Shown: positions 5,525 to 62,185 of the stretch, piece by piece | How the letters are laid out: the number at the start of each line of letters is the position of its first letter | How positions within the stretch are numbered: position 1 is the first letter of the stretch | NCBI GenBank assembly: GCA_947623175.1 | Contig: CANQGK010000013.1 | Span: forward strand, 1-64,000 | Source: an uncultured Clostridia bacterium | GTDB lineage: Bacteria > Bacillota > Clostridia > Oscillospirales > Acutalibacteraceae | Reading direction: 5' to 3' | Length of the DNA stretch: 64,000 nt | Made by a program: the position numbers and the translations under genes | Notes under the pieces: model-generated | What the model was told of the DNA's origin: nothing | Seen by the model: the letters and a program-made list of their open reading frames with translations, nothing else | The model's database searches: none

Positions 5525-5795
5525 GTCAATGCAATCAGATTACAATGCGCCCGAGGCGGACGGATTTCTCCGCCGCCTGTGTCATCGTCCTTGAAATACG
5601 ACAGTATTCCCGCGTCCTCTTCCTTGCCGGACGAAAAAATCCGCTCCGACTCGGGTCGAAGATTTTGCATGAGAACGCCGTTCGTGTTCCGCGCGAAGCA
5701 CGGTTGCGAGCATACTGTCGTATGGTAAGACCGTGCGACAAAGCGGGCGCAGACGTCGTTCCACGCAAAACGCATTGTAATCTGATTGCATTGAC
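5525..5795. mobile_element. MITE copy 1, 271 bp, TA target duplication
   Basis: The ends are inverted copies of a ~25-bp repeat beginning GTCAATGCAATCAGATTAC and continuing AATGCG. TA flanks both sides (5523-5524 and 5796-5797), as for IS630/Tc1-mariner-type targets. There is no transposase. It matches the copy at 61915-62185 in opposite orientation with equal length and about six mismatches. Internal inverted segments ATACGACAGTAT and ATACTGTCGTAT would fold the transcript. It lies between the GH95-like promoter and the 3' end of the LCP gene. The ORFs across it are by-products of this structure. Confidence 0.92.
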
Positions 5796-5841
5796 TAAGC
5801 GTTTCGCGTAATAATGCCGCGCACCTCGATTGTTTTCTTTT

Positions 5842-5880
5842 AACCGTTCGGGTATAATTTTTTACCCTCGGTTTTATTTT
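5842..5880 (+). terminator. Hairpin at the 3' end of the LCP gene
   Basis: AACCGTTCGGGTA pairs imperfectly with TACCCTCGGTT, followed on the plus strand by TTATTTTT. On the minus strand, where the LCP gene ends, the U-run is absent. As written it would stop plus-strand transcription leaving the MITE. Confidence 0.45.
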
Positions 5881-7127
5881 TCGTCCTCTGCCTTGCGTTT
5901 TGCGACTTCTTCGGGCGAATAATAATTTTTTTCGAATATAAAGTCGCTTATTTCCTTTTTCGCTTTGTCGATATCATAAGTGTAGTACCATACTCCTGAA
6001 ATGGTTTGACCTTTGCCCTTGACGTTGTCGTTCGGAATACTTAACGATTCAAATTCGGGCGAAAAGAGTATCGCCCACATGCCGAGATTTAATATATCCG
6101 AGGAAGAAAGCGAGGTTTCGCATTGCTCGGTTATAAGACTTGCAAGCTGAGGCAGCTTGGTGGGATTAAGCTTTTTCGCCGCCTTGAACATAGCGGATAA
6201 AACCGTTTTTTGGCGGTTTCCGCGCTCGACGTCGCCGTCTATTTTTCGAATGCGGGCGTAGCATACGGCTTGCGTGCCGGTGAGCACCTGAAGACCGGGA
6301 GCGGAAATTTTTTTGTTTTCCATACCCTCGAATTTCGTCATGCCGATTATCCGGTTAAGCTCTTTAAATTCTTTTTCGGTTACGTCGATCTCAACGCCGC
6401 CTATGTAGTTGATAACCCTTGCAAGCTCAAAGAAATTCATCGTAACGTAATCGGTTATTTCGAGTCCGAAATTTTGATTAAGCGTTTTTACCGCAAGCTG
6501 GGATCTTCCGTAAGCGTAAGCGTGGGTAAGCTTGTCCTTGGAGTGACCGTCGATGCTTACGTAACTGTCGCGCGCTATGGAGGTAAGCTTTATTTTTCGG
6601 TGCGCTTTATCGACGGTAAGTATCACTATGGCGTCCGACCTGCCGGTTTTGTTGTCCTGCCTTGTATCGATTCCCAAAAGGGCGATGTTTTTATAACCCT
6701 TGTAATCCGTCGTGGCAATTCCCAAATCGGAGGCGTCAAGCTCGGTTCGCTTTATTTTATTTAAAAGATTGTAAGCGTAACCGTAAAAGGCGGCAAAGGC
6801 GACGATTACTACGCAAAGCAATACGGCGACTGTTTTAAGAAATATATGCTTTTTGCGCTTTTTACGCTTGGCGGCAGGTTTACTGCCGCCGTTTTTGGTT
6901 CGGTTCTGATTTACCGGTGTTCTTTGCGGCGCGGGACGATATTTTCCGGCGTCCGGCTCGTCCGTATCAGCATATCTCGAAGAACGCGAGGATATATCGG
7001 TATATGAGCGCGAGGAAACGTTCCTGCCCGAATGTGAAAAAATATCCGAATTGGAATTAGTGGTTTTATCGTCGTCGTAATCGTAATCGTAATCGTCGTC
7101 GTATTCGTAATCATTATTGTTGTACAT
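5874..7127 (-). CDS. LytR-CpsA-Psr (LCP) family cell-wall glycopolymer ligase
   Basis: A 417-residue type II membrane protein. Residues 1-20 are almost all Asp, Tyr and Asn. A Ser/Arg-rich linker runs to ~75, a basic KRKKRKK block precedes the single membrane helix (~95-118), and the extracellular LCP domain follows from ~150. LCP motifs seen: LLGIDTRQDNKTGRSDAI, TSIARDSYVSI, and DVERGNRQKTVL near 300. The family moves polyprenyl-linked polymers onto peptidoglycan. GGAG 7 bases before the ATG supports the start. The acidic N-terminal tail is unusually long and may bind other cytosolic division or wall proteins (inference). Confidence 0.9.
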   Translation of the reverse strand: MYNNNDYEYDDDYDYDYDDDKTTNSNSDIFSHSGRNVSSRSYTDISSRSSRYADTDEPDAGKYRPAPQRTPVNQNRTKNGGSKPAAKRKKRKKHIFLKTVAVLLCVVIVAFAAFYGYAYNLLNKIKRTELDASDLGIATTDYKGYKNIALLGIDTRQDNKTGRSDAIVILTVDKAHRKIKLTSIARDSYVSIDGHSKDKLTHAYAYGRSQLAVKTLNQNFGLEITDYVTMNFFELARVINYIGGVEIDVTEKEFKELNRIIGMTKFEGMENKKISAPGLQVLTGTQAVCYARIRKIDGDVERGNRQKTVLSAMFKAAKKLNPTKLPQLASLITEQCETSLSSSDILNLGMWAILFSPEFESLSIPNDNVKGKGQTISGVWYYTYDIDKAKKEISDFIFEKNYYSPEEVAKRKAEDEK

Positions 7128-7179
7128 TTTATATCTCCGAAAATTAATAAAATCCGGTATTTAATCAATACCGAACCCT

Positions 7180-7208
7180 ATTATATTACAAAAAAATATT
7201 TTTGTAAA
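7180..7208 (-). promoter_or_regulatory. Promoter of the LCP gene
   Basis: On the minus strand TTTACA (7203-7208), 17-base spacer, TATAAT (7180-7185). A small hairpin, CGGTATT-N5-AATACCG (about 7155-7173), lies in the leader. Confidence 0.65.
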
Positions 7209-7214
7209 GCTTGG

Positions 7215-7272
7215 CAAATAAAAAAATAAGGGCATGACGCGTTTATACGGATTACGTCCGCATCGCGTCATA
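7215..7272 (-). terminator. Terminator of dinB
   Basis: On the minus strand ATGACGCG pairs with CGCGTCAT about 20 bases later, followed by TTATTTTTTTATTT. It separates dinB from the LCP promoter. Confidence 0.7.
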
Positions 7273-7286
7273 CTCTTATAATAGGC

Positions 7287-8468
7287 TCAGTCGACGGTAG
7301 TTCCGCGTTTGATACCCGATTTTCCGAATTTTTTGCGCAATTCGTATACGCAGTCCTCCACGGGATCGTTTTCGGAGTATTCGCTTTCTTCGCCGAATAA
7401 ATTTTGTTGAATAAAAATTTCCTCTTCCTTTAAATTGATTACCCGCAGTCCTACCGAACGCAGCGGTTCGCCGAAGGTATAATTTTCGCAAAAAAGTTTA
7501 AAGCCGAGCTTCGCTATGGTAAGCGAGCTGTTTGTCGTAAAATTAAAGGTGCGCGAAAATTCCCTGACGGCAAGGGAAGAGGTGCGAATATGCACCTGAA
7601 CTCCGCTCGCGAACAATTGCTTTTGGCGCAGTGTGTCGGATATGCTTTGCGCAAACTTGAGAAAAGCTTTCCAAACCTCGTCGTTTGAAGCAAAATCGTG
7701 CGCCTCGGTGGTGGATTTGCCGATGCTTTTCGGCTTGCTTTCTTTATTTTCGGGGCTTACCGGGGAGGTGTCCTCGCCCAGAGCGTAAATTTTAAGCTCG
7801 ACGCCGTTTTTGCCCAAAAGGCGGGTAAGGGTGACATCGTCACAGCAGCTTATGTCGCCTATGGTATTGATACCGCAGCTTTTAAGCTTTTCGGCGGTTT
7901 TTTTGCCCACAAACAAAAGGTCGGACGCCGGAAGGCTCCAGATTTTTTCTTTGAAATTCTCGCGTGAAATAACGGTTACGGCGTCGGGCTTTTTCATATC
8001 GGAGCCTAATTTTGCAAAGACCTTGTTAAAGCTTACTCCCACGGATATCGTAATGCCCAATTCCTTTTTAATATCGTTTCGTATGCGGTTCGCCATTTTT
8101 TCGCCGTCGCCGAAAAGCAGGGTACTGCCCGTAACGTCAAGCCAACATTCGTCGATGCCGAAAGGTTCTATCAAATCGGTGTAGCGTTCGTAAATTTTAA
8201 AGGCTTTTTGCGAATATTCCTTGTATTTATCGTAAGCGGGAGGCAAGATAACAAGCTCGGGGCATTTTGTTTTCGCTTCGAATACGGCTTCGGCGGTTTT
8301 AACGCCGTAGGCTTTGGCAATTTCGTTTTTTGCAAGCACGATACCGTGGCGGTTTTCCGTATCGCCGCATACCGCGACCGGCAGTTTCTTGAGGGTGGGG
8401 TTAAAAAGCAAGGATACGGAGGCAAAAAAATTGTTAAGATCACAGTGCAGAATTATACGATCTTTCAT
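7287..8468 (-). CDS. dinB: DNA polymerase IV (Y family)
   Basis: A 393-residue translesion polymerase. The N-terminal HCDLNNFFASV carries the first metal-binding Asp. GIDECWLDVT near 105 carries the Asp-Glu pair of the palm. Thumb (helix-hairpin-helix, LLFVGKKTAEKLKSCGI) and little-finger regions follow. It copies damaged templates with low fidelity. GGAGG lies 7 bases before the ATG. The C-terminus is acidic and lacks a clear beta-clamp pentapeptide by eye, though IQQNLFG near 355 is a plausible QxxLF-type clamp motif. No LexA box is obvious upstream. Confidence 0.93.
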   Translation of the reverse strand: MKDRIILHCDLNNFFASVSLLFNPTLKKLPVAVCGDTENRHGIVLAKNEIAKAYGVKTAEAVFEAKTKCPELVILPPAYDKYKEYSQKAFKIYERYTDLIEPFGIDECWLDVTGSTLLFGDGEKMANRIRNDIKKELGITISVGVSFNKVFAKLGSDMKKPDAVTVISRENFKEKIWSLPASDLLFVGKKTAEKLKSCGINTIGDISCCDDVTLTRLLGKNGVELKIYALGEDTSPVSPENKESKPKSIGKSTTEAHDFASNDEVWKAFLKFAQSISDTLRQKQLFASGVQVHIRTSSLAVREFSRTFNFTTNSSLTIAKLGFKLFCENYTFGEPLRSVGLRVINLKEEEIFIQQNLFGEESEYSENDPVEDCVYELRKKFGKSGIKRGTTVD

Positions 8469-8532
8469 GTTCTTACCTCCGTATTTTAATCCTATTAATA
8501 TAATACTCTTTTTAAACCGTAAAGTAAAGACG

Positions 8533-8844
8533 TTACAGCTTAAATTTTTCGAGCGCTTTAATATGCAGTCTTTCGGTATGGCGTTTGCTGTAATTTAGAA
8601 TATAACCGATTTCCTCGAGCGTTCTGCCCAAGACGTATTTTTGGCATAAAAGCTCGCTTAAAACGGCGTCCTCCATACCGTCGATTTTTTGCTCGATTTC
8701 TTCGCGCAGTCTGTAAGCGTCCGAAATCCGCCTTTCGTATTCGTTTTTTCGCTGTGGATTTTTTGCCGCCAGCTCTTTTGCGTCGAGTATTATTCTTTCC
8801 TGCATTAAATATTTATTCAAATATGCTTTCTTTTCTTCGTACAT
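8533..8844 (-). CDS. Sigma-70 region 4-like phage regulator (DUF1492-type)
   Basis: A 103-residue protein. The N-terminal half is a charged helix. The C-terminal half, LCQKYVLGRTLEEIGYILNYSKRHTERLHIKAL, resembles a region 4 helix-turn-helix, as in the DUF1492/ArpU-like late-gene regulators of Firmicute phages. Its start overlaps the end of the upstream zinc-ribbon gene by 28 bases, so the two are translationally coupled. No other phage gene is near; it looks like a domesticated or stranded prophage piece. Confidence 0.65.
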   Translation of the reverse strand: MYEEKKAYLNKYLMQERIILDAKELAAKNPQRKNEYERRISDAYRLREEIEQKIDGMEDAVLSELLCQKYVLGRTLEEIGYILNYSKRHTERLHIKALEKFKL

Positions 8845-9230
8845 TTCTTTTTACCGGTTTTAAGCTTCGGCAATATGATGGCCACATATTGACCGTAGCT
8901 GTAATTCGTGTTGTTTTTAAGGTTGTATTCTTCCACTTCGCGCACAAGCATATTAAGCGGACTTTCGCTGAAGCGTCTGCGCCGCTTTTCTTCGAGCCGT
9001 CTTAAGCGTTCACCCCGTATTTTGCAGGCTTCGCTGCAATATTCGCTGTCCTCGGTCGTGAGCCTTGCTCCGCAGCAACGGCAATGACTGAAGAATCTTT
9101 CGCTTATGCAGTCGCTTTTGCAGTTGGGGCATACGTATAATTTTTCGTACGGAGGCGATAAAAAGCCGTGATTTTCGTATACCGCCGACGGCTGTTCAAA
9201 ATTGTACCCGCAGATTTTACAATAAAACAT
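8817..9230 (-). CDS. Small multi-zinc-ribbon protein, phage-like
   Basis: A 137-residue protein with many CxxC pairs: CKIC at residue 4, CPNC and CISE around 34-42, CRCC at ~50, then a Cys-rich segment to ~70. These suggest two or three zinc ribbons. The C-terminus is basic (KKCTKKRKHI). The start is supported by AGGAG 7 bases upstream. Paired with the region 4-like regulator at 8533-8844. Nucleic-acid binding is likely; the exact role is unknown. Confidence 0.6.
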   Translation of the reverse strand: MFYCKICGYNFEQPSAVYENHGFLSPPYEKLYVCPNCKSDCISERFFSHCRCCGARLTTEDSEYCSEACKIRGERLRRLEEKRRRRFSESPLNMLVREVEEYNLKNNTNYSYGQYVAIILPKLKTGKKKCTKKRKHI

Positions 9231-9319
9231 TTTATCAAACTCCTTTTTTTAAAAAAGTTTTTATATATATAAAGAAAAAAACGCTTTGATTTGTAAACGT
9301 CGGGCATTGATTTTTTAAA

Positions 9320-9360
9320 TAAAAATAAAAAACGGACCTTAAAAAAAGATCCGTTTTTGC
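9320..9360 (-). terminator. Terminator of the tsaE-upp operon
   Basis: AAAAACGGA and TCCGTTTTT form the stem. On the minus strand it is followed by TTTTTTATTTTTATTT. It sits 20 bases after the upp stop. Confidence 0.8.
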
Positions 9361-9380
9361 AAAATATTATTAAATTTCGG

Positions 9381-10013
9381 TTATTTTGTGCCGAAAATAC
9401 GGTCGCCCGCGTCGCCGAGACCGGGAACGATGTAGCAATGCTCGTTGAGACACTCGTCAAGCCCTGCGCAGTAAACCGGTACGTCGGGATGAGCCTCGGT
9501 AAAGGCTTTGACGCCTTCGGGAGCGGCGATAATGCACATAAACTTTATTCGCTTGGGAGAAAATTCTTTGATCCGAGTTACCGCGTCGATGGCGCTGCCG
9601 CCGGTTGCAAGCATCGGGTCGAGCACGAAAACGTCGCGCTCGTTAAGGTCTGCGGGCAGCTTGCAATAATAATCGATCGGCTTATGCGTTTCGGGGTCGC
9701 GATACATGCCTATATGACCTACCTTCGCCGCGGGAATAAGGCTTAACACGCCGTCCACCATACCGAGTCCGGCGCGCAAAATCGGAACAAAAGCCATTTT
9801 TCTGCCGGCTAAAACTCTGGTTTTGGCTACCGTTATGGGGGTTTTGGTTTCGACCTCGCGGGTGGGAAGGTCGCGGGTGGACTCATAGCACATAAGCATC
9901 GCAATTTCGCTTATAAGCTCGCGAAATTGCTTTGAGCCGGTTCTTTCGTCGCGTAAAATCGATAATTTGTGCTGAATGAGCGGGTGGTCCATAATAAAAA
10001 CGTTTTCATGCAT
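9381..10013 (-). CDS. upp: Uracil phosphoribosyltransferase
   Basis: A 210-residue salvage enzyme making UMP from uracil and PRPP. The PRPP-binding loop is [14 protein letters not shown] near 130, and the C-terminus ends [14 protein letters not shown] as is typical. The ATG at 10013 ([11 protein letters not shown]) is used because GGAGG lies 8 bases upstream. It overlaps the end of rpiB by 8 bases. Last gene of the tsaE-tsaB-rpiB-upp operon. Confidence 0.95.
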
Positions 10014-10464
10014 TTTCAATTCCTCCGGTATTTTCAATTTCCGTAATTTTATTTACTCGATTCTGATGACGTCCGCCCTCAAAACCGGTTTTTACAAATA
10101 TTTCCGCAAGCTCCAAAGCGGTGCCGACGCCGATAACTCTGCCTCCGAGACAGAGCACGTTCGAGTCGTTGTGAAGCCTTGTGTATTTAGCCGAAAAATG
10201 CTCGCTGCATGCGGCGGCGCGAATACCCTTTACCTTGTTAGCGGCAAGCGACATTCCTATTCCCGTGCCGCATACCAAAATGCCGCGGTCGCATTCGCCG
10301 GACACTATGCTTTTACAAACCTTAATTGCGATATCCGGATAATCTACCGGCTTTTGTTCATAAATGCCGAAATCGCACACCTCGTATCCCAAATCCTTCA
10401 AATGCTCGGCAATTGCGTTTTTGTGCTCCAATCCGCCGTGGTCACAGCCTAAAGCGATTTTCAT
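10006..10464 (-). CDS. rpiB: Ribose-5-phosphate isomerase B
   Basis: A 152-residue RpiB/LacAB-family sugar-phosphate isomerase of the pentose phosphate pathway. GCDHGG at residue 6, CGTGIGMS near 66 with the catalytic Cys, and CLGGRVIG near 106 are all present. The start overlaps the tsaB stop (ATGA), with AGGAG upstream. Its place before upp links ribose-5-phosphate/PRPP supply to nucleotide salvage. Confidence 0.93.
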
Positions 10465-11177
10465 TTTTCATTCTCCTTTTTAAGCTTTAATTCTCTTTCT
10501 GCCTGGGGCAGTCTTAAATATACGGGTAAAATTTCCTCGGGCGATAAAGTATCCCCCTTTTCAAAGACCTTTGCCGCCGCAAGACCTACGCTTGCCGCGT
10601 TTTGAAAACGCCGCGCGCCGTCCGATTTTTCTATATTGTCGATACCGTCGGTATACGGAAAAAAGACCTCGGTTCCGTCGCCGGCAACGATGATTTTTTT
10701 ATCGGTATTTGCAAAAAGCTCCTTTAAATTTTTCGCCAATTCTTCGCACATAAGCGCTCGGTCCTCGCAAATGCGCTTTATTTCACCGTCCGTTATATCA
10801 AAAAGGGCGTTGTAAACCTGATTGCACCTGGCGTCCATAACCGCGCAGACGATACAGTCGGTATCCGTAAAATTATATGCCGTCGAAAGCAGGGTCGAAA
10901 CTGCGGCGCAGGGCTTTTTTAAAGGCGCCGCCATACCCTTTACGGCGCTTATTCCGATACGCACTCCGGTAAACGAGCCGGGGCCCGCGCTCACCGCAAA
11001 ACCGTCGATATCGGCTAAGGTTATGTTATTTGACTTAAGCAGCTTTTCCACCATAGGCATCAATATCTGCGAATGAGTAAGCCCCACGTTTGCAAAATCC
11101 GATGCCGCGGTTTTACCGTTTTCGGTAATCGCCGCAGAGCAGGGGGCGGCGGAGCATTCTATGGACAGTATTTTCAT
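10461..11177 (-). CDS. tsaB: tRNA t6A synthesis protein TsaB
   Basis: A 238-residue ASKHA-fold protein that dimerises with TsaD in N6-threonylcarbamoyladenosine formation at tRNA position 37. The hallmark SAGPGSFTGVRIG is near residue 65, and the N-terminus MKILSIECS is typical. It overlaps tsaE and rpiB by 4 bases each (ATGA). tsaD is not in the window. Confidence 0.93.
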   Translation of the reverse strand: MKILSIECSAAPCSAAITENGKTAASDFANVGLTHSQILMPMVEKLLKSNNITLADIDGFAVSAGPGSFTGVRIGISAVKGMAAPLKKPCAAVSTLLSTAYNFTDTDCIVCAVMDARCNQVYNALFDITDGEIKRICEDRALMCEELAKNLKELFANTDKKIIVAGDGTEVFFPYTDGIDNIEKSDGARRFQNAASVGLAAAKVFEKGDTLSPEEILPVYLRLPQAERELKLKKENEK

Positions 11178-11608
11178 TTTTTTAAATCCTTTTTGGTAAA
11201 AATCGTAATTTTGCGGCTGTACTCTCCCGTTTTTTCGATTTCTATGTATATTGTCGAATCAGGCAGAGCGTTTTCGATGTTTTCGCTCCATTCCGCGACG
11301 ATCACCCCGCCCTGCTCGAGATATTCGAAGTAACCGGAAGAATACAGCTCATCCCATGAGGATATGCGGTACATGTCGAAATGATAAATTGGGAGCCTGC
11401 CGCCCGTGTATTCGTTTATAAGCGCAAAGGTGGGGGAGGTTACCCTGCCGCAAAATCCGAGCCCTTTTGCGATGCCGCGCGTAAAGCAGGTTTTGCCGGC
11501 GCCTAAATCGCCGCGAAAAGCTATAACCTCGCCGCCCTTCAAACCGACCGCAAAGTCGGCGGCGATTTGCTCGGTTTGCGACGGGTCGCTTGAAAAAAAT
11601 ATATCCAT
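11174..11608 (-). CDS. tsaE: tRNA t6A synthesis ATPase TsaE
   Basis: A 144-residue P-loop ATPase of the t6A complex. Walker A is GDLGAGKT near residue 35. TSPTFALINEY, HFDMYRI and the WSENIENALP region match the family. First gene of the four-gene minus-strand operon; GGAAGG precedes the ATG by 6 bases. Confidence 0.94.
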   Translation of the reverse strand: MDIFFSSDPSQTEQIAADFAVGLKGGEVIAFRGDLGAGKTCFTRGIAKGLGFCGRVTSPTFALINEYTGGRLPIYHFDMYRISSWDELYSSGYFEYLEQGGVIVAEWSENIENALPDSTIYIEIEKTGEYSRKITIFTKKDLKK

Positions 11609-11637
11609 AATAAGCCTTCCGTTTTTAAATTATATAT

Positions 11638-11665
11638 ATTCTACCACATTTTTCTTAAAATTCAA
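11638..11665 (-). promoter_or_regulatory. Promoter of tsaE-tsaB-rpiB-upp
   Basis: On the minus strand TTGAAT (11660-11665), a 16-base spacer and TAGAAT (11638-11643). It is back to back with the promoter of the SEDS gene. Confidence 0.6.
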
Positions 11666-11673
11666 AGAATTAC

Positions 11674-11702
11674 TTGCATATTTATTTAAAATAAAATATA
11701 AT
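11674..11702 (+). promoter_or_regulatory. Promoter of the SEDS gene
   Basis: TTGCAT (11674-11679), 17-base spacer, TATAAT (11697-11702). The stretch around the -35 is almost identical to the one in front of argG (13004-13020). Confidence 0.7.
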
Positions 11703-11736
11703 ATACTAAAATTTCTGTCTTAAAGGTGGCGTTACA

Positions 11737-12864: not shown

Positions 12865-12868
12865 TTTG

Positions 12869-12905
12869 TAACCGCTTTGTCCGTAAAGCGGTTATATTTA
12901 TTCGT
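12869..12905 (+). terminator. Terminator of the SEDS gene
   Basis: AACCGCTTT (12870-12878) and AAAGCGGTT (12885-12893) form a clean stem followed by ATATTTATT, right after the stop codon. Confidence 0.75.
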
Positions 12906-31523: not shown

Positions 31524-31576
31524 ATCCGATCCGAATTACCCGTAAAAATATTGGTTTTGATTGCATTGCTATCTAA

Positions 31577-35143: not shown

Positions 35144-35189
35144 GTAACAAATATAACATTAAAAGCGGTATTTTGTCAATAAGCGGTTA

Positions 35190-35232
35190 GTCAATGCAAT
35201 CAGATTACGCATTGTAATCTGATTGCATTGAC
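35190..35232. mobile_element. MITE derivative, 43 bp: the two ends fused
   Basis: GTCAATGCAATCAGATTAC is joined directly to GCATTGTAATCTGATTGC plus ATTGAC; the 220-bp interior of the full MITE is gone. TA flanks both sides. It folds as a 19-bp stem with a 5-base loop and lies 20 bases before the tRNA-Leu promoter. Confidence 0.9.
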
Positions 35233-35251
35233 TAAATATTAAAAAAAATAC

Positions 35252-35298: not shown

Positions 35299-35385
35299 GC
35301 CGGTGTGTCGGAATTGGCAGACGAGACAGACTCAAAATCTGTTATCCGCAAGGGTGTGTGGGTTCGAGTCCCACCACCGGCACCA
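35299..35385 (+). tRNA. tRNA-Leu, anticodon CAA
   Basis: The acceptor stem GCCGGTG pairs with CACCGGC, discriminator A, and CCA is encoded. The anticodon stem ACAGA/TCTGT holds the loop CTCAAAA with anticodon CAA (UUG codons). The long variable arm and GGTTCGAGTCC T-arm fit a class II leucine tRNA. Confidence 0.95.
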
Positions 35386-48389: not shown

Positions 48390-48448
48390 AAAAATACGGA
48401 TCGGGTTACAGGTTGGATTTTTACAGACTTTAATACCGATTTACAATA

Positions 48449-48473
48449 GTCAATGCAATCAGATTGCATTGAC
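48449..48473. mobile_element. MITE derivative, 25 bp
   Basis: GTCAATGCAATC-A-GATTGCATTGAC: the outer 12 bases of both MITE ends around a single A, flanked by TA on each side (48447-48448, 48474-48475). It is the shortest of the four related elements and lies 28 bases before the start codon of the LRR_5 gene. Confidence 0.85.
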
Positions 48474-48501
48474 TAAATAAAAATGAAAAGAAGTGTTTTA
48501 T

Positions 48502-50583
48502 TTGAAAAAATTGTTTAGTATTTTATTGGCGGGATTATTTATTGCACTTTCTTTGCCGTTTGTGCCGCAAGCGGAAGGCTTTGCGGAAAATCAATGCGGA
48601 GAAAACCTTTTTTGGTCGTTTGATGAAACCTCCGCAACCCTGACCGTTTACGGTGAGGGCGAAATGGAGGATTACTCTATTTCTCGCCATCCCACGTGGT
48701 GGGATATTAAGGACGATGTCGAGCATATTGTGATCGAAGAAGGGGTGACCTCCATAGGCAATTGGGCATTTTACCTTCTTTATGCCGAAACGCTTACATT
48801 GCCGTCTACTTTGCTCAGAATCGGATCGAATGCGTTTAGAGTGTTATGTGTTACCGAGCTTGTTATTCCCAAAAACGTGGTTACAATAGGAAACAATGCA
48901 TTTGAAGATTCGCCGTATCTTCGTTCCGTAATTATAGAAAACGGAAATCTGTCCTCAATTGGTGATTTCGCTTTTAACTATTGCACCGAATTGGAAAGCT
49001 TGGTCTTGCCGGAAAATCCTGTCGCAATAGGAAAATATGCATTCGATTCAACAGCCATCAAAGACCTTACGATCCCTCGCGGATTTACCGAAATAGGCGA
49101 ATATTCATTTACTTATATGAATAACTTGGAGTCGGTTCATATCGCGGGCACCGTTAAAAAAATCGGTAAACATGCGTTTTCGGGTCTTTCAAAACTTAAA
49201 GAGCTTGTATTCGAAGAGGGATTAGAGGAAATAGGCGACAGTGCGTTTGCGGGCGATTCGGGACTTAAAAACATTGTATTAAAAGAGGGATTGGAGAAAA
49301 TCGGCGACGAAGCATTTATTTCATGTGGTTTAGAAAGCGTGGTTCTGCCCGATTCCTTAAAAACCATTGGGAAAGGTGCGTTCGAAAATAACAGGCTTAA
49401 AAACGTTGTATTCGGAAATAAAATTGAATTTATAGGCGTATACGCATTTTACAAAAACCAAATTAAATCGGTCTTTTTGCCGGAGTCTGTTAGAGTTAGA
49501 CCCCTATACTATTATGAGTTTGATAAATCGGTGATCATTTACGGCGTGCCGGGCAGCGCTTTGGAAGAAGTTGAAAATTTTTATCCTTTGCCGAATTTAA
49601 CCGTAGATACCGTGACGCTCGATAAGGTCGCATTTGTACCCATGCCCGGTATGGAATACAGCATCGACGGCGAAAATTGGCAGGACGAGCCCGTATTTAC
49701 GGGGCTTTCGCCGAATACCGAATACACCTTTTATCACCGCTACGCGGCAAATGGCGAGCAGGAGGCTTCGCCCTACGGCACGCGGCTTAAATTAAAAACA
49801 AACGACGGCGAATTTTCCGATGAAAGCTTTTGGGATTATGCCGCCGGCGCGGCTTCGCTCACCGTTTCGGGCGACGTTTATTTGCATGATTACGGCACGG
49901 GCTGGTCGGAGCAAAGCTGGTATTTGTATAAAACTAAAATCAAAACGCTTACGCTCCAAAACGCCGACAAAATCGGCGCCCGGGCGTTTGCAAAGCTTAC
50001 ACGGCTTGAAAGCGTTTCATTGCCCGACGGACTTCGCATAATCGGCGCGCATGCCTTTGAAAATGCCGTTAGTCTGCAAAATATCGCTTTGCCGCCTACG
50101 GTTACGGAAATCGGCGATAACGCGTTTTACCGCGCCGGGCTCAAAGATGAGCTCGACTTAAGCGGCGTTTCGGTGATAGGGGATAACGCCTTCGCCGACT
50201 GCGGCGGCATAACCCGCGTACGCTTTTCCGAAAACCCGCTTTACATAGGCTTCGGCGCCTTCTCGGGCGAAAAAACCGTAACTTTTGTCTTCCCGAACGA
50301 GGCGGAATTTATCGCGCCGGATTTTTGGGAAAATTGCGAAAACTCGACTGTTTATTGTAAGAAAAATTCCTCCGTAGAGGAATACGCCGCAAACAATGGC
50401 GCCGCCTACCGTATATTCGGCGACTTGAACGACGATAAAATTCTGAACGCGCAGGACCTTTTGCAGCTCAAAAAACTGCTCATAAACTCCGAAACAGACA
50501 ATTTGTCTTCAGACGCCAACGCCGACGCCAAAACCGACATCCTCGACCTTATACACCTCAAAAAACTCCTCACGGATGAGTAA
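48502..50583 (+). CDS. Secreted LRR_5 (BspA-like) protein with dockerin-like C-terminus
   Basis: A 693-residue protein. TTG at 48502 is preferred: AGAAG lies 8 bases upstream and the frame begins MKKLFSILLAGLFIALSLPF, a signal peptide; a GTG three codons earlier has no ribosome site. About ten LRR_5 repeats of the form LxxIGxxAFxxCxxLxxVxLP (90-330), a linker with SIDGENWQDEPVFTGLSPNTEYTF (~380), a second LRR_5 block (~470-600), then a dockerin type I-like pair (GDLNDDKILNAQDL and SDANADAKTDILDL, ~640-690). A surface or cellulosome-like adhesin is inferred. Confidence 0.85.
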   Translation: MKKLFSILLAGLFIALSLPFVPQAEGFAENQCGENLFWSFDETSATLTVYGEGEMEDYSISRHPTWWDIKDDVEHIVIEEGVTSIGNWAFYLLYAETLTLPSTLLRIGSNAFRVLCVTELVIPKNVVTIGNNAFEDSPYLRSVIIENGNLSSIGDFAFNYCTELESLVLPENPVAIGKYAFDSTAIKDLTIPRGFTEIGEYSFTYMNNLESVHIAGTVKKIGKHAFSGLSKLKELVFEEGLEEIGDSAFAGDSGLKNIVLKEGLEKIGDEAFISCGLESVVLPDSLKTIGKGAFENNRLKNVVFGNKIEFIGVYAFYKNQIKSVFLPESVRVRPLYYYEFDKSVIIYGVPGSALEEVENFYPLPNLTVDTVTLDKVAFVPMPGMEYSIDGENWQDEPVFTGLSPNTEYTFYHRYAANGEQEASPYGTRLKLKTNDGEFSDESFWDYAAGAASLTVSGDVYLHDYGTGWSEQSWYLYKTKIKTLTLQNADKIGARAFAKLTRLESVSLPDGLRIIGAHAFENAVSLQNIALPPTVTEIGDNAFYRAGLKDELDLSGVSVIGDNAFADCGGITRVRFSENPLYIGFGAFSGEKTVTFVFPNEAEFIAPDFWENCENSTVYCKKNSSVEEYAANNGAAYRIFGDLNDDKILNAQDLLQLKKLLINSETDNLSSDANADAKTDILDLIHLKKLLTDE

Positions 50584-55570: not shown

Positions 55571-55595
55571 GTTATGCGTCGGAGTGGGTGTTAGG

Positions 55596-55706
55596 ATGAA
55601 ACTCGAGAATGAAAAGAAAATAAATGAGATTTTGTGTGAAATGACCTTGGAAGAAAAAGTTGCAATGTGTCACGCAAATTCTAAATTTTATTCAAGGCGA
55701 TTTTGA
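55596..55706 (+). pseudogene. N-terminal stub of a GH3 beta-glycosidase
   Basis: A 36-residue ORF with INEILCEMTLEEKVAMCHANSKF, the usual opening of GH3 enzymes (MTLEEKVAL). It stops at once; the remaining ~700 residues are absent. Confidence 0.72.
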
Positions 55707-55733
55707 ATATTACGAATAAATCAGGTGGTTTTT

Positions 55734-57186
55734 ATGTCTGTGAAAATATTTTCTTCTCTTGAAAAATGTTTTTTGGATGAGAATTTTTACGGCAAGAAAG
55801 AATATGCTCGAGGCTCATGTCTTTTAAACGAACGTTTCCGTTTTACAGTAGGTTATGCAGTCGGTGAGAAGTGTCAAAATAATCAATATTTTAATTTGAG
55901 TATTCGGTCTCCCTTAAAAGAATATATAAATATTTATAATATTGAGCATGTTCCGGTTCATATGCCTTGTTATCTTAATAATAAGGATGAGAACTATTTA
56001 AGAACATCCCCCGGACTTTATCCGGATTTATTGTTACCGATTTTTGATGGCGAAAAGCTTGTTGTAAGTGCTAATTATGAATCACTTTATGTGGAAATTG
56101 ATACAAAAGGCGAAGTTGAGCATGGCGAGTATCCTATTGAAATTTGTTTGTTAAACGAGGATGGAACCGTGTGGGATACGGCTGTATTTACACTTGAAAT
56201 AATTGATGCGATGCTGCCCGAGCAGGAGCTGATAAATACGCAATGGCTGCACTGTGACTGTCTGAGTGAATATTATAAAACGGAAAGTTTTGATGAACGA
56301 CATTGGAAGATAATCGAAAATTATATCGGTACGGCTGTAAAACGCGGAATAAATATGATACTTACTCCGATATTTACGCCGCCGATCGATACCGCGGTCG
56401 GCGGTGAGCGTAAAACCACTCAGCTGGTGGGCGTAACCGCAGATAACGGAAAATATGATTTTGATTTCACTTTACTTGAGCGTTGGGTAGAATTGTGTGA
56501 TAGATTGGGTGTAAAATATTTCGAAATTTCGCACTTTTTCACACAGTGGGGCGCCGCTCATGCACCGAAAATAATGGCAAATGTAAACGGTGAATACAAA
56601 AAGATTTTCGGTTGGGAAACGGATGCTCGCGGCAAAGAATACAAAGAATTTTTGGAAGCTTTTATTCCGAAATTTCTTGCATTTATGAAATCAAAAAACA
56701 ATGCCGACAAAAGATGTTGGTTTCATGTTTCCGATGAGCCTAAAATGAAAGATATGGAACAATATAAGGCGTCGTATGGCATAGTCAAAGATTTGTTAAA
56801 GGATTATGCCGTAATAGACGCTCTTTCGGATTATGAATTTTACAAGGAAGGTATAGTAAAAAGACCGATCCCTTCTACCGACCGCATTGAAGATTTTTTG
56901 ATAAATAATGTTCCGAATTTATGGATCTATTATTGTTGTGTGCAAACAAAAAAGGTTTCAAACAGATTTATTTCAATGCCATTCGCGCGCAACCGTATTA
57001 TCGGATTTCAAATGTATAAATTTGATATAATGCGAAATGCTTTGCGGCAGAGAAAAGGTTTTGGAAATATTGGAAGACGGTATAAATCCGATAACCTTTA
57101 ATGAATATCCCCGAAATGCGGAATGGATACTCAATGCAAGAGAAAGAATTAATAAGCAAATAAAAAAATATGCAGATAAGAGATAG
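55734..57186 (+). pseudogene. DUF4091 glycoside hydrolase-like protein with deletion and frameshift
   Basis: The start at 55734 has AGGTGG 5 bases upstream. The frame is good through WFHVSDEPKMKDMEQY and IIGFQMYKFDI (~430), where DUF4091 proteins normally continue with a HWGYNFY segment and ~80 more residues. Instead a short joint follows, then a shifted frame: EKVLEILEDGINPITFNEYPR to a TAG at 57184. An internal deletion plus frameshift near 57050 is inferred. Confidence 0.8.
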
Positions 57187-57223
57187 TTGTATTTTGAAAA
57201 GATAAAATTCAAGGAGCATAATT

Positions 57224-57410
57224 ATGTTATATCCAATCGAAAACGAAATCAGACAAGTGAAAAATCTTAACGGAATTTGGAAATTTAAAAAAAGATAACA
57301 GATATAATCAAGGGTTTGATGAAAAGTGGTATGAAAAACCGTTATCCGATTTCATAGAAATGCCTGTTCCTGCAAGTTATAACGACTGGAACTACCGGCT
57401 TGGCCGGTAG
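57224..57410 (+). pseudogene. N-terminal stub of a GH2 beta-glucuronidase/galactosidase
   Basis: MLYPIENEIRQVKNLNGIWKFK is the opening of GH2 beta-glucuronidases. A run of seven A at 57287-57293 shifts the frame, after which FDEKWYEKPLSDFIEMPVP and ASYNDW continue the same family. It ends at 57408 in a terminator. AAGGAG precedes the ATG. Confidence 0.8.
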
Positions 57411-57416
57411 TTTTTA
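57391..57416 (+). terminator. Terminator closing the decayed glycan locus
   Basis: ACTACCGGC (57391-57399) and GCCGGTAGT (57403-57411) with a TTG loop and TTTTTAA after. It lies inside the last codons of the GH2 stub. Confidence 0.85.
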
Positions 57417-57611
57417 AGACATTATGTCGTAGAAGAACAGCTTTGCTGTGTGCTTTTCGGGAATTGTAAGGGTGAAGCCTTCGCTTTCGAGCTGTTCGGC
57501 TGTGAGAACGAAAGTGCTGTCGTCCTTGGCGTCGATCTGTATGTCATGCTGTTCAAGCGGCTTGCCGTCGTAGGTCAAGCTGAATCGCCTTTGTTCATTC
57601 AGTAAATCCAT
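57414..57611 (-). CDS. Unrecognised 65-residue protein
   Basis: Begins MDLLNEQRRFSLTYDGKPL, with AGGAGG upstream and its own consensus promoter. Acidic, beta-rich look, no signal peptide. The first 19 residues vaguely recall the opening of some family 36 glycosidases, but the rest does not. Complete small protein or rearranged remnant cannot be decided. Confidence 0.5.
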   Translation of the reverse strand: MDLLNEQRRFSLTYDGKPLEQHDIQIDAKDDSTFVLTAEQLESEGFTLTIPEKHTAKLFFYDIMS

Positions 57612-57639
57612 TTTGATCTCCTCCTGTCATTTGTCGGAT

Positions 57640-57668
57640 ATTATAGCAATAATATTTATAATTGTCAA
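57640..57668 (-). promoter_or_regulatory. Promoter of the 65-residue gene
   Basis: On the minus strand TTGACA (57663-57668), 17-base spacer, TATAAT (57640-57645): full consensus. Confidence 0.8.
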
Positions 57669-57700
57669 GAATGTTATTTCACTTTTTCTCCGCAACAGCC

Positions 57701-57729
57701 TTGAAAAAGTTTGTTTAAACGTATATAAT
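57701..57729 (+). promoter_or_regulatory. Promoter of the LysR gene
   Basis: TTGAAA (57701-57706), 17-base spacer, TATAAT (57724-57729), 49 bases before the start. Confidence 0.75.
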
Positions 57730-57777
57730 ATTCATATCAAAGGAAAAGGCAGTCAAAAACCGAGGTGGAAGATGATA

Positions 57778-58686
57778 ATGAACATCAATAATATCAATTT
57801 TACATCCTTTATCCGTGTGGCGGAGGCGGGAAGTTTTAACAAGGCGGCAGAGGATCTATACATAACTTCCACTGCGCTGATAAAGCAAATCAATCTGCTG
57901 GAAAATGATTTGGGCGTGCGGCTTTTTGACAGAACGCATCGGGGGCTTACGCTGACAAAGGCCGGTGAATCCCTATACAAAGACGCCCGTTACATAACGG
58001 ACTACTGCCGAGAAGCGGTGGAACGCGCAAGGAGTGCAGAGCTTCAGCAGGAGCAGGTGATACGTATAGGCACCTCACCCATGACGCCCGCTCAGCTTCT
58101 CACCGATCTGTGGCCGCAGATCCACAAGCATTGTTCGGACATAAACTTTCAGCTTGTTCCTTTTGAAAACACCCCGGAAAACGCCAGAGAGATTTTGAGA
58201 AACCTCGGCGATAAGATCGACGTGGTGGCGGGAATTTTCGATGAGACCATGCTTAAACTGCGGGAGTGTGACGGTTTTGAAATATCACGCGAGCCGATCT
58301 GCGTTGCCGTGTCCATTTATCATCCGCTGGCGTCTAAAGAGAAACTGACGGTCGAAGATTTATACGGCGAGACGCTGATGATCATGCATCGGGGCTGGAG
58401 CCGTCAAATGGACGAAATTCGGGATGAGCTTACGGAACATCACCAGAAAATCACGCTGGAAACCTTTGATTTTTACAATATGGAAGCATTTAACCGATGT
58501 GAGCGCGAGAAAAAGGGATTGCTTGTCATCGGAAAATAGTCCTGCGTCCATCCGATGATGAAGGTGATCCCCGTCGAGTGGAACCATGATATTCCTTTCG
58601 GGATTCTTCACTCTCCGACGCCTACCAAAATGCTTTCCCGATTTCTCTCCGCCGTGCGGCAGGTTACAAGTGAGAACAGGTCATAA
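57778..58686 (+). pseudogene. LysR-family regulator with an in-frame TAG
   Basis: A 302-codon frame starting MNINNINFTSFIRVAEAG, with GAGGTGG 9 bases upstream. The HTH (~1-60) and effector domain are normal up to LLVIGK (253). There a TAG (58537) stands where a Trp codon would fit; the frame continues CVHPMMKVIPVEWNHDIPFGILHSPT to a natural TAA at 58684. Without read-through the protein lacks its last ~50 residues. Three matching operator boxes lie in front of downstream units, the first beginning at its own stop codon. Confidence 0.8.
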
Positions 58687-58720
58687 CCTGAGGTTATAAC
58701 CGATAAACCAATCGAAACTT
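58683..58720 (+). promoter_or_regulatory. LysR-type box A, before the PNPOx-like gene
   Basis: ATAACCT-G-AGGTTAT (58683-58697) is a perfect 15-bp dyad, followed by AACCGATAAACCAATCGA and AACTTC. The same block recurs at 59254 and 61251. Confidence 0.82.
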
Positions 58721-58778
58721 CCCATTCGGGCGGCGAAGCGCTATTATAAAATCAAACACATACAAGGAGGACTTTGTT

Positions 58779-59171
58779 ATGCAAAGCGTTTACGATTTTT
58801 TAAAGAAGGTCGGCACCTATTACCTCGCGACCGTTGAGGACGGTCAGCCCCGCGTGCGTCCGTTCGGCACGGTAGATTTATTTGAAGGAAAACTGTATAT
58901 TCAGACCGGCAAGGTCAAAGAGGTCTCTCGGCAGATCGCAAAAAATCCGCTTGTGGAGCTGTGTGCTTTCGACGGCGAAAAATGGCTGCGGCTTTCCGGC
59001 CGACTTGTGCGCGACGACCGTGTCGAAGCCAAAAAGCACATGCTCGATGCCTATCCGAATTTGCAGGCGATGTATTCGCCGACCGACTACAACACCGAGG
59101 TGCTGTATTTTGAAAACGCCACCGCCGTCTTTTCCTCTTTTACCGAGGCGCCGGTTACCGTCAAGTTTTAA
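58779..59171 (+). CDS. Pyridoxamine 5'-phosphate oxidase-like FMN-binding protein
   Basis: A 130-residue split-barrel flavoprotein. MQSVYDFLKKVGTYYLATVEDGQPRVRPFG is the standard opening, with GKLYIQTGKVKEVSRQI binding the FMN phosphate. Single-domain, so more likely a general flavin reductase than a true PdxH. GGAGG is upstream. First unit under the shared operator. Confidence 0.85.
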   Translation: MQSVYDFLKKVGTYYLATVEDGQPRVRPFGTVDLFEGKLYIQTGKVKEVSRQIAKNPLVELCAFDGEKWLRLSGRLVRDDRVEAKKHMLDAYPNLQAMYSPTDYNTEVLYFENATAVFSSFTEAPVTVKF

Positions 59172-59253
59172 GCGTAATTTGAGGACGACGACAGAAGTGA
59201 GTTTTACTGTTTTGAAAAAAGACGGCGAATGGAGCCATGCCATTCTCTGAGTC

Positions 59254-59292
59254 ATAACCTATGGTTAGAACCGATAAACCAATCGAGACTTC
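59254..59292 (+). promoter_or_regulatory. LysR-type box B, before the double esterase gene
   Basis: ATAACCT-A-TGGTTAG (59254-59268) followed by AACCGATAAACCAATCGAG and ACTTC. TATAAT lies about 50 bases downstream, placing the box near -60. Confidence 0.8.
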
Positions 59293-59343
59293 TACGGAAG
59301 CCTCGGTTTTTTTATAATGTAATCAAAGGAGGAGTAGACGATT

Positions 59344-61242
59344 ATGAAAAAACTTACGGTTCTTTTCATTCCGATATTGCTTATATTGATTTTTACATTA
59401 CTCTGTGCTTGCAGCGCGCATACGGATAATCCGGAGAAATCATCCGCTGAAAGCGAGAAATCGGGGGTTGACAACATAGGAATACCGCAGACCGGCCGGA
59501 CGCAAGCGGTTCCGGCAGAGTACACAGAGGCGGCAGCAGAACAAGGAAACGTCGTTCGGCTCGACTATAAGTCCGAAGATTATGTGCGGGACGGCAGCTC
59601 TATCACAAAAACCGCATATGTTTATACGCCCTACGGTTACGATGAAGCAGACCTTGAGGCGCGGTACAACATTCTATATCTGATGCACGGCTGGGGCGGT
59701 CATGCCGGAGAATATTTTGATTTTACGGCGACGAAAAATATGTTTGACAACCTAATTGCAAAGAGCGATATTCCGCCTATCATCATCGTGTCGGCGACTT
59801 TTTACAATGAAAACAGCAGCACGGATTTTGGGAGCTCTATTGAAGAATTCCGCGCCTTTCATCAGGATTTTGAAAATCACCTGATGCCCGCGGTTGAGGG
59901 ACGGTTCCATACCTACGCCGCGTCCACTTCCCCGGATGACTTAAAAGCTTCCCGTGACCATCGGGCGTTCGGCGGCTTCTCCCTCGGTTCGGTGACCACA
60001 TGGCTTCAATTCTGCTATGATTACGATTATATCCGTTATTTTCTTCCGATGAGCGGTTCCTGCTGGTACTACGGCACCTATGGCGATTTCCGCTTTGAGG
60101 ACAACGTGGACTTTATAGAGCAGCTTGTAAAAGACGAAAACCTCGACGAGTGTGGGTACTTTATCTATCATGCCGTCGGTACAGAAGATGCGGTCAAGAG
60201 TCAGTCGGTAGAAATGGCTGAGGAAATGCTGTCGCGGGAGATTTTTACGCCGGATCATTACGTTTTCTACCAAAAGGACGGCGGCTACCACGATTTTAAT
60301 GCCGTGCAGGAATATCTCTATAACGCGCTCCCGCTGTTTTTTAGAGATAATTCTGCAAAAACGCGGACGGAAAGTCAGCCATACACCGCCGATACCGCCA
60401 TTTCGGATGTGACGGGCGATCCCGCTTTCAAAGCCTTCGGGCGGTTGATTTTTCCCGTGGACACCGGGTATTTCGGCGGCGAGACGCTTCGGGATCTTCG
60501 TTTGACCTGGTATTCCAACATCGACGCGGACAAGACGGTTGAGATTTGCAACTATATGAAAACGCACGCCGAAGCGGGCGAGACGATCTTTTACGATATT
60601 TATACCGATAAAGAAAAAGCCGACGATCCCGACAAGGCGGATACGGGTCTCTTCTTTTTTAGGGGCAATCCCGGTGAGAAGTTTGCCGTGTGTAATGCCG
60701 GAGGCGGATTTGCCTATGTCGGCGCGATGCACGACAGCTTTCCACACGCGCTTGAGCTTTCCAAAATGGGCTACAACGCCTTTGCGCTGATTTACCGCCC
60801 CGGCTCGGATACGGCGATGGAAGATCTGGCGCGGGCGATAAGCTTTATTTTTGCACATGCAAAAGAGCTGCAAGTGGATACCGACTGTTATTCCCTGTGG
60901 GGCGGCTCGGCGGGCGCACGGATGGCGGCGAACGTCGGCTCCTACGGTACCGCTTACTTCGGCGGAAACAAATTGCCCCAGGCGGGCTGTGTTGTCATGC
61001 AGTACACAGGCCACAGCGAGTGGCAGAAAACCGATCCGCCTACTTATGTATGCGTTGGAAAAAATGACGGTATTGCAAATTGGCGCACGATGCAAAACCG
61101 GATAAATGCGATGTCCGCCGCAGGCATTCCGACAGAGTTTCACGCTTATGACGGTCTTTCCCACGGCTTCGGGCTTGGTACGGGAACGGTTGCCGAGGGC
61201 TGGATAAACGACGCGGTGGCGTTCTGGAAAGAACAAATGTAG
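59344..61242 (+). CDS. Lipoprotein with two alpha/beta-hydrolase domains
   Basis: A 632-residue protein. N-terminal signal and lipobox ending LLCACS (~23). Domain 1 (~70-340) is an esterase D/feruloyl-esterase-like fold with LMHGWGG and nucleophile GGFSLGS near 215, and HDF near 315 as the candidate His. Domain 2 (~365-630) is a second hydrolase with LWGGSAGAR near 520 and LSHGFG near 605. Two full hydrolases in one chain is unusual and suggests coupled deacylation of an outside substrate, perhaps glycan esters (inference). Confidence 0.82.
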   Translation: MKKLTVLFIPILLILIFTLLCACSAHTDNPEKSSAESEKSGVDNIGIPQTGRTQAVPAEYTEAAAEQGNVVRLDYKSEDYVRDGSSITKTAYVYTPYGYDEADLEARYNILYLMHGWGGHAGEYFDFTATKNMFDNLIAKSDIPPIIIVSATFYNENSSTDFGSSIEEFRAFHQDFENHLMPAVEGRFHTYAASTSPDDLKASRDHRAFGGFSLGSVTTWLQFCYDYDYIRYFLPMSGSCWYYGTYGDFRFEDNVDFIEQLVKDENLDECGYFIYHAVGTEDAVKSQSVEMAEEMLSREIFTPDHYVFYQKDGGYHDFNAVQEYLYNALPLFFRDNSAKTRTESQPYTADTAISDVTGDPAFKAFGRLIFPVDTGYFGGETLRDLRLTWYSNIDADKTVEICNYMKTHAEAGETIFYDIYTDKEKADDPDKADTGLFFFRGNPGEKFAVCNAGGGFAYVGAMHDSFPHALELSKMGYNAFALIYRPGSDTAMEDLARAISFIFAHAKELQVDTDCYSLWGGSAGARMAANVGSYGTAYFGGNKLPQAGCVVMQYTGHSEWQKTDPPTYVCVGKNDGIANWRTMQNRINAMSAAGIPTEFHAYDGLSHGFGLGTGTVAEGWINDAVAFWKEQM

Positions 61243-61250
61243 AATAAGTT

Positions 61251-61290
61251 ATAACCTGCGGTTAGAACCGATAAACCAATCGAGACTTCC
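61251..61290 (+). promoter_or_regulatory. LysR-type box C, before the chimeric gene and flavodoxin
   Basis: ATAACCT-G-CGGTTAG (61251-61265) followed by AACCGATAAACCAATCGAG and ACTTCC. TATAAT-like sequence follows near 61310. Confidence 0.8.
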
Positions 61291-61344
61291 CCGAAAGTCT
61301 TGAGCTATTTATAATTATAATATCATCGGAAAGGAAGGATTATT

Positions 61345-62175
61345 ATGAAACGAATCGGTGCGCTGATGCTTGCTGTTATTCTCATCTTCGGCCTCGCCGC
61401 TTGCGGCGGGAAGGCGGACGTTGACGGCTTGGCGAGTGAAGATCACTTATCCCACAACATCGAGGACGTCGATCCCGATCAAAGTACGGGGGGCGCCGCG
61501 ACGGGTCTCGGTACGGCGCTCGGCGAAGCATTTTTGCCGATGCATCTGCCGATTTTGCTGGTAGGACTTTTGGCAGGCCCGTATGCGGGCGCCGTTTCGG
61601 GATTTTTAAGCCCGCTTTTGAGCTTCGCGCTTTCGGGTATGCCGCGCGCCGCAATGCTCCCCTTTATGATGATCGAGCTTTGCGTTTACGGCCTTGCGAC
61701 GGGACTTCTGCGCAACGTTAAAATGCCGACGATAGGCAAGGTAGTTGCGGCGCAGGTTGCCGTTCGTGCCGTTCGTGCTGCCGCGATATTGCTGTCCGTT
61801 TACGCTTTCGGCAACAGTCAAATCGCCGTTGCGACCATTTGGACGAGTATAGCGGCGGGGCTGTTCGGACTTGTGCTTCAATGGGCGTTTTTACCGCTTA
61901 TCGTTTATCGTATAGTCAATGCAATCAGATTACAATGCGTTTTGCGTGGAACGACGTCCGCGCCCGCTTTGTCGCACGGTCTTACCATACGACAGTATGC
62001 TCTCAACCGTGCTTCGTGCGGAACACGAACGGCGTTCTCATGCAAAATCTTCGACCCGAGTCGGAGCGGATTTTTTCGTCCGGCAAGGAAGAGGACGCAG
62101 GAATACTGTCGTATTTCAAGGACGATGACACAGACGGCGGATAAATCCGTCCGCCTCGGGCGCATTGTAATCTGA
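61345..62175 (+). CDS. Chimera: lipoprotein leader, ECF-transporter S-component, MITE-coded tail
   Basis: A 276-residue ORF. Residues 1-45 are a lipoprotein signal (FGLAACGG lipobox) and linker. From about GTALGEAFLPMHLPILLVGLL (~58) it is an ECF S-component core with PYAGAVSGFLSPLLSFALSGMPRA and MIELCVYGLATGLL; its first helix is missing. At codon 190 (61912) the MITE at 61915-62185 enters and supplies the last ~86 residues. Without the MITE the gene would end RIENLKK at 62205. Function is doubtful. Confidence 0.8.
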   Translation: MKRIGALMLAVILIFGLAACGGKADVDGLASEDHLSHNIEDVDPDQSTGGAATGLGTALGEAFLPMHLPILLVGLLAGPYAGAVSGFLSPLLSFALSGMPRAAMLPFMMIELCVYGLATGLLRNVKMPTIGKVVAAQVAVRAVRAAAILLSVYAFGNSQIAVATIWTSIAAGLFGLVLQWAFLPLIVYRIVNAIRLQCVLRGTTSAPALSHGLTIRQYALNRASCGTRTAFSCKIFDPSRSGFFRPARKRTQEYCRISRTMTQTADKSVRLGRIVI

Positions 62176-62185
62176 TTGCATTGAC
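61915..62185. mobile_element. MITE copy 2, 271 bp, inserted in the chimeric gene
   Basis: Same length as copy 1 and inverted relative to it, about six mismatches, terminal repeat GTCAATGCAATCAGATTAC plus AATGCG. TA duplication at 61913-61914 and 62186-62187. Internal inverted segments ATACGACAGTAT (61987-61998) and ATACTGTCGTAT (62103-62114). Removing the element plus one TA gives codons ATA GAG AAT TTA AAG AAA TAA. Confidence 0.95.

Follow-up and report, generated by a model that had tools for sequence, protein, structure and literature searches.

How did TA-flanked inverted repeats of very different lengths come to share one 64,000-nt stretch of the genome of an uncultured Clostridia bacterium (contig 13, CANQGK010000013.1, of assembly GCA_947623175.1), and what moves them? 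An earlier note on this stretch, here called the window and used for all coordinates, had described four members of a miniature inverted-repeat transposable element (MITE) family, with 271, 271, 43 and 25 bp between their TAs. All four were confirmed at these sizes and belong to a larger genome-wide set. They are probably non-autonomous, transposase-less fold-back elements of a broad superfamily, inserted at TA, mobilized in trans by an enzyme that is not of the IS630 kind and later collapsed into shorter forms.

The two full copies in the window are equal in length, inverted with respect to each other and 97.8% identical (about 98% had been estimated), with perfect 27-bp terminal repeats. A coding role of the interior was set aside, the open frames that cross it being taken as incidental. 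The spans 35190-35232 and 48449-48473, previously read as fused ends, are exact: the 47-mer and the 29-mer have no mismatch to a plain fusion of left end and right end and lie between TAs. A 15-base end pattern (up to three mismatches) matches the window eight times, as compared with a mean of 1.21 and a maximum of 5 in 100 shuffles (Table 1).

Table 1. Positions of the full elements, their parts and their short forms in the window.
Feature	Position	Strand	Remarks
Full element, type-1 ends (TA + 271 bp + TA)	5523..5797	+	275 bp in all
Left 27-bp terminal repeat including TA	5523..5549	+	
Right 27-bp terminal repeat including TA	5771..5797	-	
Hairpin module, first arm	5582..5622	+	Core ATACGACAGTAT at 5596-5607; model R2 53.1 bits (arm itself among the rows used to build R2)
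Hairpin module, second arm, inverted	5697..5737	-	Core 5712-5723; model R2 44.4 bits
Half relic, single type-2 end	31554..31572	-	14 exact bases ATAGCAATGCAATC
Fused-end hairpin, 47 bp (43 bp between TAs)	35188..35234	.	Upstream of tRNA-Leu 35299-35385
Fused-end hairpin, 29 bp (25 bp between TAs)	48447..48475	.	
Full element, type-1 ends	61913..62187	-	275 bp; in the 3' end of an ECF-transporter gene
Hairpin module, second arm, inverted	61973..62013	+	Core 61987-61998; model R2 42.2 bits (arm itself among the rows used to build R2)
Hairpin module, first arm	62088..62128	-	Core 62103-62114; model R2 54.9 bits

Across the genome (2.38 Mb, 54 contigs, 94% complete), an 18-base end with up to two mismatches was matched 63 times, eight in the window and 55 elsewhere, and its reversed control not once. 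Copies with both ends number 25, 20 of type 1 and five of type 2, around one common interior. The type-1 copies, with ends of TA followed by GTCAATGC, lie at different sites and are 95.6-100% identical in pairwise comparison; an identical internal deletion of 42 bp recurs in two of them at separate sites, and one copy carries a duplication of 5 bp. The type-2 copies, with ends ATAGCAATGC, also occupy different sites, have the interior of type 1, carry the type-2 letters on both ends in all five cases (L103 with one further change) and are on average 95.3% identical to type 1, ends included. Nine further pieces are cut by contig ends, and at three loci (L048, L101 and L104) a copy directly adjoins an apparent older decayed end. 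At L048 (positions 2520-2620, G000:C19), the left end of the copy, TATAGT, was seen by eye to lie 17 bases after TTGACA, where it could complete a -10 box; the element may create a promoter there. Short forms comprise 13 of 29 bp, five of 45-50 bp (one of them, L141, counted from end-pattern matches alone) and single half ends, and these counts are lower bounds because 150 of 521 candidates were scored and the end-core matches were listed in part.

The element carries no gene, is short (275 bp) and has inverted 27-bp ends, as MITEs in general do. When relatives were searched with the terminal repeat, as the earlier note had proposed, the end core with up to two mismatches gave 136 matches in the own genome and a single, chance-like one across 69 other genomes of the genus. 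The element is thus apparently restricted to its own species within the sampled genomes. The exact end core was absent from a collection representing 84,980 species by one genome each, from which the own and very near genomes were possibly left out. Exact ends were not found in viral contigs, nor was the element matched in phages. A single weak match to a Streptomyces plasmid (E 0.2) was taken as chance.

Is TA duplicated on insertion? Flanks were joined in silico at 43 sites, of which 12 were translated; the others were intergenic or uninformative. At L031 (C1), the element splits an AraC-type gene, and its removal with one TA kept restores the HTH_18 helix-turn-helix (profile 1-79 of 80) across the junction. 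The ECF-transporter gene at window position 61913 reads 87 further codons into the element; removing the element plus one TA returns the short natural end and stop of the gene, PLIVYRIENLKK. At these two genes one TA is exact, as the earlier note had expected of a TA target. L045 is consistent with it, one TA keeping the longer frame (402 as against 347 codons), and at L102, the sole type-2 gene site, the frame is kept with two added bases; two misfits are taken up below. As candidates for an empty site of the hairpin upstream of tRNA-Leu, three relatives (L066, L068, L072) have a similar promoter and no hairpin, a weak comparison in which the left flank is unaligned. As far as sequence comparison can tell, copies at different sites together with TA duplication at two gene sites uphold the interpretation as mobile elements.

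How do the short forms arise? Read on one strand, the two terminal repeats are also alike in direct orientation: one offset gives 16 identical positions of 25, and the other 12 offsets tried gave at most 10 of 23. This one offset is that which yields a 29-bp fused product, and 13 short forms fit 29 bp (L049 is possibly one base longer). Eleven came from searches with one-end patterns, in which no length is presupposed; L088 and L090 were found solely by a 29-position model and have five mismatches each. Compared with a plain fusion of left and right ends, six of the 13 have none or one mismatch and seven have two to five. The 29-bp class may accordingly be explained as deletion by mispairing across the hairpin. 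This agrees with the internal deletion down to hairpins that had been suggested from the size series. The same note had offered the mobilization of minimal substrates as the alternative. Such mobility is unneeded for the 29-bp class, because the register in which the ends match directly is enough to predict a length of 29 bp. A related possibility is that the 29-bp hairpins are themselves mobile, or are an ancestral unit later doubled into the long element, in the manner of singlet repetitive extragenic palindromic (REP) sequences and of REP doublets forming hairpins (REPINs). Each terminal repeat is itself nearly a 29-mer, two identical type-2 29-mers lie at different sites, and a single junction is common to five of the six type-2 29-mers, a pattern not expected of independent deletions that leaves room for minimal-substrate mobility. 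However, the type-1 29-bp copies fall into at least three junction classes, the differences of two to five bases in seven of 13 exceed the divergence among long copies, and no Y1 transposase was found in the own genome. We consider both versions of this possibility, mobile 29-mers and an ancestral 29-bp unit, rather improbable.

What else carries such an element? Of 394 genomes in the order, 21 (own included) contain a match to the interior (window 5549-5771), although some matches are short and apparently unrelated (e.g., L164 and L168). In another genus of the same family (G371), the whole element is present, 276 bp long and 80.8% identical, with ends of TA followed by GGCAATAC. G170 has a 381-bp version with ends of TA followed by GACGAT. 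Other genomes of the order share just the part around ATACGACAGTAT, within fold-back elements that have different ends. The core pattern CTTGNNATACGNCNGTATTCC, with one mismatch allowed, occurs in 24 of 391 genomes of the class, own included, at up to 53 places per genome; in at least three of these genomes (loci L177, L178 and L183) the matches look like chance, and the reversed control gave two matches in total. A model built from the core, under stricter filters, matched five of 398 sampled genomes of the phylum, own included. Outside the class, module-like sequence was found in G1132 (E 0.0016 and 0.009), where a scripted search found no TA-ended inverted ends. The interior is a covarying hairpin module, and most of its occurrences are within fold-back elements that are flanked by TA and differ in their ends.

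Viruses and plasmids were also searched. The exact module core was not found in viral contigs. The end of family A gave three single ends there (L199-L201), and no module was found at those loci. The family A element had no match among plasmids and matched two phage records, at best with 77% identity over 90%, with a changed core present; a scripted search found no TA-ended inverted ends there. The best-matching family A-like element (L231, 77% over 90%) is in MT835572.1, a phage scaffold from human faeces. Several lineages (L174-L198, L153-L167) have GTTCGG/GTTCGA-like letters near the right end, which by eye resemble a tRNA T-arm.

The architecture around the module is regular. An automatic search for inverted ends between TAs succeeded at 26 of 44 motif loci (L104 was off-centre and L151 yielded no motif), as against one of 51 control windows taken from these loci. 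The ends found include TAGTCAATGC, TAGGCAATAC, TAAGGCAATA, TAGGCATAAG, TAAGCAGTTG, TAAGGCGAGG, TACTAATATC and TATTGCTCCC; by eye, some ends of module-bearing elements are alike and others unlike. Twenty elements anchored by hand, with ends supplied manually, fall into two size classes: two-armed elements of 274-281 bp (14 elements, and a fifteenth of 266) and one-armed elements of 159-176 bp (five elements). For spacing, two elements were added. In 15 of 17 two-armed elements a GNCR loop lies 72-79 nt from the left end; in the other two the module occupies this position but has a different loop. Its inverted counterpart, YGNC, is found at a distance of 77-79 nt from the right end in 11 of the 17. 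Of the remaining six, three carry a loop of five bases at that position, G170 has its loop at 184, and L173 and L186 have none by rule. In the own element the loops lie 77 and 78 nt from the ends. One-armed elements have the GNCR loop at 79, 90 and 92 nt from the left in three cases and none by rule in two. Shuffled elements reach the spacing in 0.18% (left) and 0.14% (right). The stem of the second arm differs in sequence between elements (catac, gccttgc, ggcaggc, aaatgc, gctaatgc), and its loop is constant.

Pairing within the module was assessed in an alignment of 36 rows (33 distinct). From 52 motif places 38 were taken, and L153 and L166, shifted by insertions, were then dropped. Left out were chance-like places (window 56169, L177, L178, L183 and L189 2076), alternative readings (L165 896 and L166 980), four further places in the own element (two in the window, L170 and L194), the second tandem copy in L161, L191 (deleted) and L198. 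The structure pairs 81.2% of cells, as against 64.6% in shuffles. Its covariation score is 0.369, as against 0.123 when shuffled (reached in 0/500) and at most 0.165 when slid. The outer stem, which except for its closing C lies outside the search pattern, is 72.1% paired and covaries.

Does this pairing serve an RNA or the DNA itself? The earlier note had supposed that the folded interior may have an RNA role. A structured RNA made from the element, as a processing site or regulator, with DNA mobility incidental, would suit the covarying outer stem, the conserved asymmetric internal loop TTGA/CCTGC, the GNCA-type tetraloop and an interior that folds better than its shuffled versions do (z -2.95 and -3.65). 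Against such a product, G-T and A-C mismatches are equal, 25:25 in the terminal stems of 20 elements and 10:12 in the outer stem; with no sign of RNA wobble in these counts, the pairing points to the DNA level rather than the RNA level. Furthermore, the hairpin stands in inverted copies at both ends, and Rfam gave no family over its gathering score at an element, either here or in nine loci of other lineages. An RNA product of this kind is held to be quite unlikely. In the Rfam search, tRNA and TPP reached their thresholds away from the elements. MIR839 scored 35.6 bits over the family A element, where 200 are needed, and any long fold-back probably resembles it; SNORD88, at 22.4 bits, is below its threshold of 46.

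Which enzyme moves the elements? The earlier note had named an IS630/Tc1-mariner enzyme in trans. Ordinary MITEs of a lost or unassembled insertion sequence of this kind, with the interior as a relic of the parent's ends, would account for the TA duplication, the perfect terminal repeats and the recent burst of near-identical copies. However, DDE_3, the IS630-type transposase domain, was not found in the own genome (three of 14 control genomes matched) and is absent from 19 of 20 genomes, from several families, taken as carriers of relatives, so an IS630 partner is not supported. The terminal repeats also differ between lineages while the interior is shared, and MITEs of one insertion sequence show the reverse pattern. 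This explanation is therefore held to be unlikely. A transposase with the same ends, for which the earlier note had advised a search, did not come to light either: among the listed places no end pair encloses a gene, apart from neighbouring separate copies.

A REPIN- or IS200/IS605-like system, in which an HUH enzyme acts on single strands, was also considered. PMC6006769 describes IS200/IS605 transposases as binding subterminal hairpins at both ends, and hairpins of this placement are present at both ends of the element. However, the HUH search, limited to Y1_Tnp, found none in the own genome (five of 14 control genomes matched), TA is duplicated, and the ends (TAGTC, ATAGC) are without the GTAG/GTGG foot that canonical REPs have according to PMC6006769. 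An HUH system is judged very improbable.

Several observations weigh against the preferred interpretation of trans-mobilized TA elements, beside the junction common to most type-2 29-mers. Two broken genes do not fit the TA target: at L048, the gene joined without TA is one codon shorter than its homologues, and at L035 the frame continues without TA (390 codons) and less far with it. These misfits may be due to drift, since the genes are broken, or to a target duplication of another length. In type-2 copies, the bases duplicated are compatible with either TA or AT. The inner stem and loop letters of the first arm lie inside the search pattern, so that independent evidence comes only from the outer stem, the spacing and the second arm; the 17 two-armed elements include near relatives of one another. 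Of five covariation measures, two fail to rise above shuffles: pairs with both sides changed (9 vs 8.9) and further pair types (27 vs 23.6; 41/500). Outer-stem pairing could also be kept by hairpin-templated repair, one arm being copied from the other, without selection. TA-ended inverted ends were found at three of 10 further module loci, and beyond the class it is the module alone that traces the superfamily. Finally, a search of the own assembly for DDE_3 and Y1_Tnp found no mover; with 94% completeness, 54 contigs and nine contig ends inside copies, an autonomous copy could be unassembled.

Two neighbourhoods in the window were also recorded. Upstream of the tRNA-Leu hairpin, 35071-35180 matches itself in inverted orientation and has matches in three relatives, G021, G023 and G027; it is perhaps another repeat family. 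Directly downstream of the 29-bp hairpin, 48493-50583 encodes a large BspA-type leucine-rich repeat protein with a dockerin match slightly under the cut-off.

How might such elements move and decay? We propose that they insert at TA and duplicate it, as seen at two gene sites. The superfamily is found in several families of one class; its mark is a conserved hairpin module placed some 78 nt inward from the ends, with terminal repeats that differ by lineage, and two-armed elements hold one module copy per end, inverted. An enzyme that acts in trans and is of another kind than IS630/DDE_3 most likely recognizes each end by its TA, long terminal stem and subterminal hairpin, cuts the element out and re-inserts it. 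Inserted copies would later lose their middle by deletion between both ends: at the hairpin tip, giving the 45-50 bp forms, or in the single register of direct resemblance, giving the 29-bp forms. Further loss would leave half ends. A bolder proposal, offered tentatively, is that this is mobile DNA recognized by shape. A TA-specific enzyme would act on the folded element, with its long terminal stem and two equal GNCA-capped arms, such that terminal sequences may drift as long as they pair and the arm tips alone keep their sequence.

A covarying module across fold-backs with different ends, where the expected transposase is absent, points to another mover at work in many related lineages. The module and its spacing provide a handle for finding this enzyme; they would also account for a group of intergenic repeats that have as yet no name in these genomes. 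In the 29-bp forms, the collapse of inverted-repeat elements would have left a natural record.

How do these elements compare with known systems? Prokaryotic MITEs, as described in PMC10969869, are likewise small, with inverted ends, a duplicated target and a stable fold. The present elements differ by a covarying module shared at fixed spacing across different ends, and a parent insertion sequence was not found. No description was found in the literature, sequence strings included, within a coverage that leaves out most subscription journals; together with the lack of an Rfam match at the element, this leads us to regard them as a new form of MITE-like element. REPINs and REPs with their REP-associated tyrosine transposases (RAYTs) resemble them in paired hairpins, single shorter forms and the lack of an own gene, according to PMC3116915 and PMC6006769. 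The present elements differ from these by having no Y1 transposase, a duplicated TA and long perfect inverted ends. The Correia elements (NEMIS/CREE) of Neisseria, of 100-160 bp, share the TA duplication, inverted ends (about 26 bp), internally deleted versions and fold-back structure. Their ends are conserved, whereas those described here vary between lineages, and they are not known to share an interior module with elements of other ends. In the nearly precise excision of Tn10, the middle is lost between short direct repeats near the ends and a short palindrome remains. The loss proposed here follows the same pattern; it differs in being deduced from sequence alone and in having a single favoured register, which leads to 29 bp.

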